Positions 8,749 through 10,922 of a DNA stretch of 64,000 nt are shown here, piece by piece. A program made the translations under genes and the position numbers. The first letter of the stretch is position 1. The number at the start of each line of letters is the position of its first letter. Source of the DNA: Brevundimonas mediterranea (GTDB lineage: Bacteria; Pseudomonadota; Alphaproteobacteria; Caulobacterales; Caulobacteraceae); contig NZ_CP048751.1 in NCBI RefSeq assembly GCF_011064825.1, forward strand, positions 3,162,001 to 3,226,000, read 5' to 3'. Under the pieces are notes generated by a model, which worked only from the letters and a program-made list of their open reading frames with translations, searched no databases and had not been told where the DNA came from.

Positions 8749-9057
8749 ATGCGCACGATCTCCATCAATGACCCCGATGACGCCCGGATCTCCGGCTTTC
8801 GCGATATTCGCGAACGCGACCTGACGGGCCGCGAGGGCCTGTTCGTGGCCGAAGGCGAGGTGGTGGTGCGGGTGCTGGCCTCGACCGCCTCACGATGCCG
8901 ACCCCGCGCCCTGCTGCTGACGGAGAAACGGGTCGCGGCCCTGAGCGACGTCATCGCGGCGCTTGCGCCGTCGGTTCCCGTCTATGTCGCCGGCCAGACC
9001 GTTCTGGACCGGATCGCCGGATTTCCGCTGCACCGGGGCATCCTGGCCCTGGGTGAT
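8749..9057 (+). pseudogene. SpoU-family RNA methyltransferase, 5' part (interrupted by IS)
   Basis: Encodes the first 103 residues of a TrmH/SpoU-type RNA 2'-O-ribose methyltransferase, including the N-terminal substrate-binding domain (GREGLFVAEGEVVVRVL, then FPLHRGILALG). The frame then enters an insertion sequence and stops at 9105 after 16 foreign residues. Joining codon 103 (GAT at 9055-9057) to GAG at 10416 gives an uninterrupted 271-aa protein, the usual family size. The fragment lacks the SPOUT catalytic domain and cannot be active alone. Confidence 0.85.
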
Positions 9058-9060
9058 GGG

Positions 9061-9072
9061 GTGGACGCCCCC
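9061..9072. repeat. Left subterminal inverted repeat of the IS
   Basis: GTGGACGCCCCC is the exact reverse complement of the segment at 10400-10411. Confidence 0.85.
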
Positions 9073-9127
9073 CGACGGCATCTATGTGCCAGAGTGAGGT
9101 GTTGAACAGCACTCGAAGGAGGCGTCC

Positions 9128-10153
9128 GTGGAACAAGTTAGCACTGTCGGTCTGGATCTCGCCAAGAACATCTTTCAAGCGCATGGCGCTGATGCCTCGG
9201 GCGAGGTGGTGTTTCGCAAGAAGTTGGGTCGAGGCCGATTGCTGGCGTTCTTCGCTGGCCTGTCGCCCTGCGTGGTGGCGATGGAGGCCTGCGCCGGCGC
9301 CCATTACTGGGGGCGTGAGCTGGCCCGCCAGGGTCATACGATCCGATTGATCCCGCCCATCTATGTAAAGCCGTTCGTGAAGCGTCAGAAGAACGATGCG
9401 GCCGATGCCGAAGCCATCTGTGAGGCGGCGCAGCGCCCCAGTATGAGGTTCGTGCCGCTGAAGGAGGAGGAGCAGCAGGCCAGCAGCGTGGTCTTTCGGG
9501 CCCGCGACCTTCTGGTCCGGCAGCGAACCCAGACGATCAACGCCCTGCGCGGTCACCTGGCCGAATACGGCTGGATTGTTCCCAAGGGCGTTCCGCACGT
9601 CGATAGGTTGATCGCGCGCGTCGAAGATCCGGCAGAGGCGCTTCCAACCGCCGCGCGGACGATTCTTCTCGTCCTGGTCTCGACCCTCCGATCGCTGGAC
9701 CAGCAGATCGCCGTGCTCGATGCGGAGATTGCTTCCCGGGCCAAGAACGATCCGGTTGCGCGTCGACTGATGACCATTCCCGGGATCGGTCCCATCACAG
9801 CTACAGCCTTGGTCGCACTGGCCCCGTCACCCGAAGCCTTCAAGAGCGGTCGGCACTTCGCCGCCTGGCTGGGACTGACGCCGCGACAACGATCCACCGG
9901 CGGTCAGCAGAAGCTCGGCGCGATCACCAAGATGGGCGAGCGAACGCTTCGACGGCTGCTGACCATCGGGGCCAGCGCGGTGATCAAACAGGCCGTCATT
10001 CGGGGCGCGCCAGCAGGTTCCTGGCTGAGCCAGATGCTGGAGAGAAAGCCCAAGATGTTGGTCATCGTCGCCTTGGCGAACAAGAACGCCCGCATAGTCT
10101 GGGCGCTCTTGGCCAAGGGCGATGTCTACCGAGCTCCGGTCGTGTCGGCCTAG
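9128..10153 (+). CDS. IS110-family RNA-guided transposase
   Basis: A 341-aa recombinase with the RuvC-like DEDD set D10 (GLDLAKN), E53 (AMEACAG), and D90 and D93 (KNDAADAEAI). A Transposase_20 domain follows: PGIGPITATALVALAP, then WLGLTPRQRSTGGQQKLGAITKMG. Ser256 in RSTGG is the likely catalytic serine of the second domain. IS110 enzymes excise a circle and reinsert it, guided by a structured RNA encoded in the element's non-coding end. The GTG start has a good AAGGAGG site 6 bases upstream. The frame is intact, so the element may still be active. Confidence 0.95.
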   Translation: MEQVSTVGLDLAKNIFQAHGADASGEVVFRKKLGRGRLLAFFAGLSPCVVAMEACAGAHYWGRELARQGHTIRLIPPIYVKPFVKRQKNDAADAEAICEAAQRPSMRFVPLKEEEQQASSVVFRARDLLVRQRTQTINALRGHLAEYGWIVPKGVPHVDRLIARVEDPAEALPTAARTILLVLVSTLRSLDQQIAVLDAEIASRAKNDPVARRLMTIPGIGPITATALVALAPSPEAFKSGRHFAAWLGLTPRQRSTGGQQKLGAITKMGERTLRRLLTIGASAVIKQAVIRGAPAGSWLSQMLERKPKMLVIVALANKNARIVWALLAKGDVYRAPVVSA

Positions 10154-10399
10154 CCAGCACGACCGCGAGACGTCGAAGCGTAGGGATGAGCGAAGGAGCG
10201 TATGGCGCAACAGTCGGCGAGACGGGATCAGGAAAACCAGGGCTTTCCACTGTGCTTCGAGCACGCCGTGGGTGATTTGGACCGGATCCGCGAACTCCCA
10301 TACAGGCCAGCGGTCTTTGAGCGACCGCATCAACAGGCCGGACAGATGGCAGCATCCGACTACGTGTCAGAAATTCCCGAAAATCACTCTTGCGCTGAA
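10154..10399 (+). ncRNA. Candidate bridge/seeker RNA in the IS right end
   Basis: A 246-bp non-coding stretch between the transposase stop and the right inverted repeat, with several possible hairpins (GGAAA/TTTCC 10231-10248, GTGC/GCAC 10252-10264, CGGTC/GACCG 10311-10327). TGGGTGAT at 10269-10276 equals the target's left flank up to the crossover (9050-9057). ACAGATGG at 10342-10349 equals the joined circle ends (10410-10415 then 9058-9059). In IS1111 elements the guide RNA is known to be encoded here. The right-hand guide segments were not identified by eye. Confidence 0.5.
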
Positions 10400-10411
10400 G
10401 GGGGCGTCCAC
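10400..10411. repeat. Right subterminal inverted repeat of the IS
   Basis: GGGGGCGTCCAC, the exact reverse complement of 9061-9072. Confidence 0.85.
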
Positions 10412-10415
10412 AGAT

Positions 10416-10922
10416 GAGAAGCCCGTCGCGCCGCCGGTCGAGCACCTGTTGGCGGCCGTCGCCGACGAGGATGTGTTCGTGATCGCCAGCGGCATCGGCA
10501 ATCACGACAATATGGGCGGCGTGTTCCGCAATGCGGCGGCCTTCGGGGCGCGGGCCGTCTTGCTGGACGAGACCTGCTGCGACCCCTTCTATCGCAAGGC
10601 TATCCGGGTTTCGGTCGGGGCCGTGCTGAGGAGCCCGTTCACGGTCGGCGGATCGGCCGAGGATCTGGTGGCGGCGATGCAGACGGCGGGGGTGGAGGTG
10701 CTGGCCCTGACCCCGTCGGCGACGCTGAGGCTGGCGGACTACCGGCCCCAGGGCCCCGTCGCCCTGATGGTGGGGTCGGAGGGGCCGGGTCTGCCCCGTG
10801 TCGTGATTGATCGGTGCCGCGCCGTCGGCGTGCCCATGGCGGGGGGCTTTGATTCGTTGAATGTCGCCGTGACCAGCGCCCTGGCGCTTCATCATGTGAC
10901 CAGCGGGCGGCCCGCAGGCTGA
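10416..10922 (+). pseudogene. SpoU-family RNA methyltransferase, 3' part (interrupted by IS)
   Basis: Encodes the 168-residue SPOUT catalytic part of the interrupted gene: motif 1 (NHDNMGGVFRNAAAFG), motif 2 (ALMVGSEGPGLP) and motif 3 (FDSLNVAVTSALALHH), with the knotted SAM-binding site intact. It has lost its own start and N-terminal RNA-binding domain. An open frame enters it from inside the IS (from about 10122), so a hybrid protein could be made. The natural state is best described as a gene broken by insertion. Confidence 0.85.

Follow-up and report, generated by a model that had tools for sequence, protein, structure and literature searches.

A probable bispecific bridge RNA encoded in the right end of an IS1111-group insertion sequence from Brevundimonas mediterranea

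IS1111 elements were shown in 2024 to choose their targets by RNA guidance, and the RNAs were described as seekRNAs (PMC11187229) and bridge RNAs (PMC11208160). According to PMC11187229, IS1111 elements have extensions of 7 bp on the left and 3 bp on the right outside their inverted repeats; the bridge-RNA paper describes the manual inspection of six elements, three per group (PMC11208160). The element analyzed here, found in a window of 64,000 nucleotides from Brevundimonas mediterranea (the whole stretch of DNA that was analyzed), belongs to the IS1111 elements with a seekRNA or bridge RNA described in PMC11187229 and PMC11208160, to which it conforms in guide order, in the location of the RNA and in its ends. 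It is a well-supported further example of a known mechanism. The best explanation, held with very high confidence, is an IS1111-group insertion sequence, the right non-coding end of which encodes a bispecific bridge RNA (seekRNA). The layout of the element is 7 bp, subterminal inverted repeat (sTIR), interior, sTIR and 3 bp, and its features, in window coordinates, are as follows.

9054..10414, + strand: whole IS1111-group element, 1361 bp (orthologous uninterrupted site, end search, 7/3 rule of PMC11187229)
9061..9072, + strand: left subterminal inverted repeat GTGGACGCCCCC (end search)
9128..10153, + strand: DEDD transposase/recombinase, 341 aa, GTG start (open reading frame; PF01548 and PF02371)
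10228..10364, + strand: predicted bridge RNA, stretch modelled (alignment, consensus structure, covariance model)
10242..10249, + strand: right target guide GCTTTCCA, complementary to TGGAAAGC (core and right target)
10252..10264, + strand: hairpin between the two target guides, 10252-10255 pairing with 10261-10264 (consensus structure)
10268..10274, + strand: left target guide GTGGG with core TG, same sense as the target top strand
10297..10301, + strand: CCCAT as probable right donor guide, the complement of left-end ATGGG (sequence)
10305..10339, + strand: helices between the two donor guides, formed by 10305-10308 with 10336-10339 and by 10310-10315 with 10323-10328
10342..10348, + strand: left donor guide ACAGATG, equal to the right end ACAGA plus core TG (relatives and held-out loci)
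10400..10411, + strand: right subterminal inverted repeat GGGGGCGTCCAC (end search)

The transposase matched NF033542, the NCBI model of IS110 RNA-guided transposases, with 351.5 bits against a cut-off of 140, and its assignment to the DEDD (RuvC-like) type follows from matches to PF01548 and PF02371, both of which are IS110-family domains. Matches to the solved recombinases of ISCro4 and IS621 were found, the best being to ISCro4 (PDB 9t56; 5.7e-13). The NCBI model of TIGR-Tas endonucleases gave 24.6 bits for 9128-10150, against a cut-off of 100, and the TasH structure gave 5.8e-5, both far short of membership. A long non-coding stretch, 10154-10399, lies 3' of the transposase stop codon.

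The element divides a gene, the pieces of which are located at 8749-9054 and 10416-10919; the right piece encodes a SpoU-type rRNA methylase (PF00588), and the gene is whole in relatives. In the closest relative with an intact version of this gene (genome G027, locus L118), the orthologous site aligned with the window flanks over 198 bases at 97% identity without gaps when TG was counted once (CTGGGTGAGAAGC), while the ends 9058-10415 left a gap of 3 bp in the same alignment. The inverted repeats are perfect over 12 bp, with 7 bp on the left and 3 bp on the right outside them, as given by the end search together with the orthologous site. In all eight copies of the element in this genome, the left side reads GGGTGAT and the right side AGATG, which leaves several ways to place the ends; they were set at 9054-10414, with a core TG, because the L118 alignment is then free of gaps and because of the 7- and 3-bp extensions of IS1111 elements (PMC11187229). 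The uninterrupted orthologous site was examined for the window copy, one of the eight. The core TG is present at 9054-9055 and is repeated at 10415-10416. The preliminary description of this DNA had placed the crossover after 9057, with ends at 9058-10415 and a shared core GAT; these ends, off by 3–4 bp, are ruled out by the uninterrupted site, the alignment of which is gap-free with the element at 9054-10414, and the shared core is TG, replaced in some relatives by CG or AG. Since the crossover is placed by this alignment, AT at 9056-9057 is part of the left end of the element itself. When joined, the ends read ACAGA-TG-ATGGGG, and the circle junction would read CACAGATGATGGGG, as against CACAGATGGGG with the ends first proposed. 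There is no target duplication, and insertion is in a single orientation at a specific site, GGGTG and the orientation being common to 8/8 copies; the duplication-free site was seen for the window copy.

Relatives were gathered by element DNA and by transposase, which gave 146 loci, 105 of them encoding a relative. Of these, 71 in which the inverted repeats formed a clean pair and a core was shared were kept and 34 were dropped; among the 71 loci are the eight copies of this genome and the window copy retrieved a second time, and together they represent 63 distinct ends, or 62 once L007, which is L001 with a shifted start, is set aside. A held-out set of 45 loci, none of them in the discovery set, was composed of 28 covariance-model loci, 15 viral-contig loci and two loci dropped earlier. 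Alignment of the held-out loci to the model took L001 as its reference, and 27 of them had clean ends and a shared core, the other 18 lacking these. Rows of the discovery and held-out sets alike were selected for clean ends and a shared core.

A scan was run with no prior choice of position: the bases flanking the insertion point, from 12 on the left to 14 on the right, were each tested for identity or complementarity with every column of the alignment (13,362 tests; flank positions 0 and 1 are the core). The first five ranks were occupied by flank positions -3, -4, -5, -1 and -2, paired with 10270, 10269, 10268, 10272 and 10271, with agreement of 0.79–0.94 against 0.26–0.31 expected among 62 ends. 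Rank 6 was an artefact of one row (0.02 against nearly 0). Ranks 7–10 were flank positions +7, +6, +3 and +4, complementary to 10242, 10243, 10247 and 10245 (0.55–0.66 against 0.21–0.26 expected), and rank 13 was +2 with 10247; both +2 and +3 score with 10247 because some relatives are shifted by one base. Ranks 11, 12 and 14 (10349, 10198 and 10361; z 5.8–6.5) are not guides in the present reading and show the background from relatedness. These ranks place the left target guide at 10268-10274 and the right target guide at 10242-10249. Judged from the sequence, the putative target loop formed by these two segments is thus shown to match both strands of the chosen site around the TG core.

The word TGGGTGAT, reported earlier as a target word, is present at both 9050-9057 and 10269-10276, and its place was right; its last two bases, AT at 10275-10276, are not part of the guide match, which comprises TGGG and core TG, plus an A matching by chance in the window copy. 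AT follows the core of the RNA in 41/62 relatives, the targets of which differ. A handshake-like role for this AT was considered and dropped: six relatives with the left end CGTT have no TT there (by eye). The right-hand guides, earlier reported as not found, were located, the target one being GCTTTCCA at 10242-10249 and the donor one, less surely, CCCAT at 10297-10301. Within the genome, the last three bases of the window's left guide GTGGG match 8/8 own targets, T 10269 matches 3/8 and G 10268 matches 0/8; the right guide fits fully in 3/8 targets, with one mismatch in 2/8 and with two mismatches in 3/8.

All seven bases of the left donor guide agree with the element's own end and core in 61/62 relatives, the exception, L070, differing at the second core base. 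Among the relatives, the end variants are AGA, ACA and ATA and the cores are TG, CG and AG. In the held-out set, agreement in all seven bases was found in 25/27 elements, including one with a new end, AAG (L197), and those with AG cores; the two misses, L172 and L175, were counted in this set despite probably wrong ends. By sequence comparison, the donor loop carries ACAGATG, a putative guide matching the element's right end and core. The word ACAGATGG is present at 10342-10349, and its earlier reading as a junction word was correct in place and wrong in the last base, the true match being ACAGATG (7 nt) in the joined ends ACAGA+TGATGGG. On the other side of the loop, CCCAT at 10297-10301 is the probable right donor guide, judged by its complementarity to the left end; its covariation is weak.

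The donor words are where the strongest competing explanation would apply. It holds that the RNA guides the target only, as the short seekRNA of ISEc11, while the donor words merely resemble the ends and the protein reads the inverted repeats. An 82-nt RNA with both target matches is sufficient for ISEc11 movement according to PMC11187229, which agrees with this explanation, as does the weakly covarying right donor guide of the present family. Against it, the left donor word changes along with the end and core in 61/62 relatives and 25/27 held-out elements, and on the protein tree, counted over 61 rows without L070, the donor variants require four changes. A target-only RNA is therefore considered unlikely, and the bispecific bridge RNA is retained.

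For the target guides, own and cross comparisons were made on 63 rows, with L007 still counted, cross meaning other elements with different targets. The left guide agreed in at least 4/5 bases with 54/63 own targets and 5/3346 cross targets. The right guide, taken in the better of two one-base registers and with the core included, agreed in at least 6/8 bases with 51/63 own and 69/3422 cross targets, and without the core in at least 5/6 bases with 46/63 and 43/3422. Nine of the 63 left guides and 12 of the 63 right guides were under threshold, as were 8/27 left and 6/27 right guides of the held-out set.

Such agreement could come from shared descent, clades keeping a guide and a target with no functional link between them. 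The rows are indeed far from independent: the six target groups require six changes on the protein tree, five being the minimum possible (the branches of L007 and L009 are long from frameshifts), and other alignment columns reached z 6.5 in the scan. Because the target groups follow the tree, independent re-aimings are far fewer than 62. Since relatives are not independent, a kinship control was made with 28 non-overlapping nearest pairs with differing targets. At the differing positions, the guide tracked its own target in 20 cases on the left and 28 on the right, and was swapped in 1 and 0, respectively; guides were unchanged at 20 left and 18 right target differences, and there was another outcome at 6 and 11. 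In L052 and L057, with 95% identical proteins, guides and targets differ together. The held-out elements fit guide positions that were fixed beforehand, own targets reaching the left threshold (at least 4/5) in 19/27 against 5/612 for cross targets, and the right threshold (at least 6/8) in 21/27 against 8/676. In view of the matching changes within pairs and the held-out fit, shared descent is a very improbable account, and functional guides remain the reading adopted. Chance, to which the shortness of two words in 246 bp and the non-guide bases included in their first extents might point, is contradicted by the scan of 62 ends and by the held-out elements and can be dismissed.

The chance of 0.4% per 8-mer given previously was correct as arithmetic (246/65536) and ignored the freedom in ends and strand; the evidence that counts is covariation rather than this probability. 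The preliminary description had proposed a guide RNA in the right end with target guides before donor guides, and this was borne out by guides that follow targets in the 62 relatives, the 28 pairs and the 27 held-out elements; its word extents, element ends and core deviated by 1–4 bases. The covariation that it sought between guide segments and target flanks was found, relatives with other targets having other guides, and the reverse case of one segment kept across different targets was absent. A conserved RNA structure was likewise found in the right end, with a consensus that covaries among 43 sequences.

This consensus structure has 22 pairs, which form an outer stem, the target-guide hairpin and the helices holding the donor loop, and the guides sit in internal loops of it. 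Pairing is possible in 96.5% of cells, and 11 of the 22 pairs have changed on both sides. Compared with 500 shuffles, four of five covariation measures were reached by none of them and the fifth by one. In slid versions of the structure, 26–34% of cells pair; this control is biased towards the structure, since the latter was derived from the same rows. In the window's own sequence, one outer-stem pair is A-G, and a single-sequence fold of the window RNA was no better than those of shuffles (z 0.41). The covariance model, built on 43 rows, had matches in 59 of the 299 genomes searched within the order, including that of the window. A search of the window with Rfam at gathering thresholds gave five tRNAs and no bridge-RNA match. 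The trinucleotide TTG at 10390-10392 is kept in 62/62 relatives; as a sign of a circle-junction promoter, it is a resemblance to the consensus only, and the idea was set aside.

The genome carries eight near-identical copies of the 1.36-kb element, the window copy included. Six copies, the window's among them, are identical, and in L007 and in L008 the transposase gene is one base short. The two deletions are different and fall in the same C/G run (window 9779 and 9782); they are real frameshifts or sequencing errors. The eight targets read NNGGG-TG, followed by NNAAGC in 7/8 and by TAGAGC in L004. A first form of the target, GGGTGATGRRAAGC, had no matches in the genome and was replaced by GGGTGNNAAGC. 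Most copies are located in a repeated intergenic motif of the GGGTGGAAAGCGGAC type, and six of the eight sites (L002, L003, L005, L006, L007 and L008) fit GGGTGNNAAGCGGAC with at most one mismatch (counted by eye). Outside this motif are the window copy, inside the SpoU-type methylase gene, and L004, at the 5' side of an open reading frame on the opposite strand; these two, together with the motif-located L003, are the copies with two mismatches to the right target guide. Exact GGGTGGAAAGCGGAC was found in 25 of 41 genomes of the genus, in 50 copies in total, and its reversed control in none of the genomes listed. Directly upstream of GGGTGGAAAGCGGAC, an exact GTCCGCT arm was present in two of the 15 copies printed (L153 and L158), and several arms were imperfect (by eye), so that a palindrome may be centred on the core. 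No exact GGGTGNNAAGCGGAC is free in the window's genome, and two are free at one mismatch, as in the control. With no exact site free and six copies sitting in the motif, the good repeat-borne target sites of this genome appear to be filled, that is, the repeat appears to be saturated by the guided element.

The hexamer GCGGAC or GTCCGC is present in 15 of 63 target sites, against a mean of 1.04 and a maximum of 6 in 500 rounds with base-shuffled sites. The 15 sites belong to three tree groups, which differ in the register or strand of the repeat, namely, GGG-TG-GAAAGCGGAC (the window group and L091), AAG-CG-GACATT and TGTCCGCTN-TG-GCG. The elements L084, L087, L089, L097, L099 and L112, and likewise L014, L015, L016 and L034, which have other guides, are inserted in other registers or strands of the same GCGGAC/GTCCGC repeat. 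L091, from Sphingomonadaceae, with a transposase 65% identical, also has the right target guide GCTTTCCA, its target being GGAAAGCGGAC; an exchange of guides between distant elements was considered for it and dropped, since target groups cluster on the tree and common descent is possible. At L012, approximately 1502-1632 on the minus strand, a right-end remnant was found that shares about 86% identity with the final 134 bases of the element; of the RNA, it keeps the donor half and not the target half, and no transposase relative was found at the locus. A broader reading, to which we incline with some reserve, is that the IS1111-group elements of this alphaproteobacterial lineage encode full bispecific bridge RNAs, the donor loop of which is under selection and follows changes of end and core, and that at least three lineages are aimed at different registers or strands of the GTCCGC/GCGGAC repeat, the good sites being filled by the window's element in its own genome.

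By analogy with IS621 and ISEc11, the RNA would be transcribed from a promoter formed when the ends join in the circle, would bind the recombinase and would hold the target and the circle junction together, with strand exchange at TG. Base pairing of the guide RNA would choose the insertion site and recognize the joined ends of the element. The family is a clean natural data set, with dozens of relatives, sharp ends, different targets and matching guides, and it bears on a question that the seekRNA and bridge-RNA papers, as far as their descriptions go, answer differently, namely, whether the donor is read by IS1111 RNAs in addition to the target. Should the donor loop be in use, re-aiming of both ends of the reaction would be possible with a recombinase of only 341 aa.

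Among known systems, the seekRNA elements ISEc11, ISKpn4, ISPst6 and ISPa11 are described in PMC11187229 as having the same subterminal inverted repeats with 7- and 3-bp extensions, the same non-coding region downstream of the transposase gene, the same order, with the top-strand complement before the bottom-strand match, and the same natural re-aiming among relatives; ISPa11 likewise uses a REP sequence. The repeat and the target of the window element are different, and it is known from its sequence. A donor-guide match is described here and was not found in the description of seekRNA in PMC11187229; the quantitative support for a donor guide that changes together with the element end may go a little further than the prior work. 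The likeness to the ISCro4 recombinase (PDB 9t56) is one of protein sequence only. According to PMC11208160 and PMC11208158, IS621, of the IS110 group, likewise has two loops, target and then donor, with a left and a right guide in each, the core dinucleotide being part of these guides. IS621 has its RNA in the left end and CT as its core, whereas in the window element, the RNA lies downstream of the gene, the core is TG, the right guide precedes the left in each loop and the inverted repeats are long.
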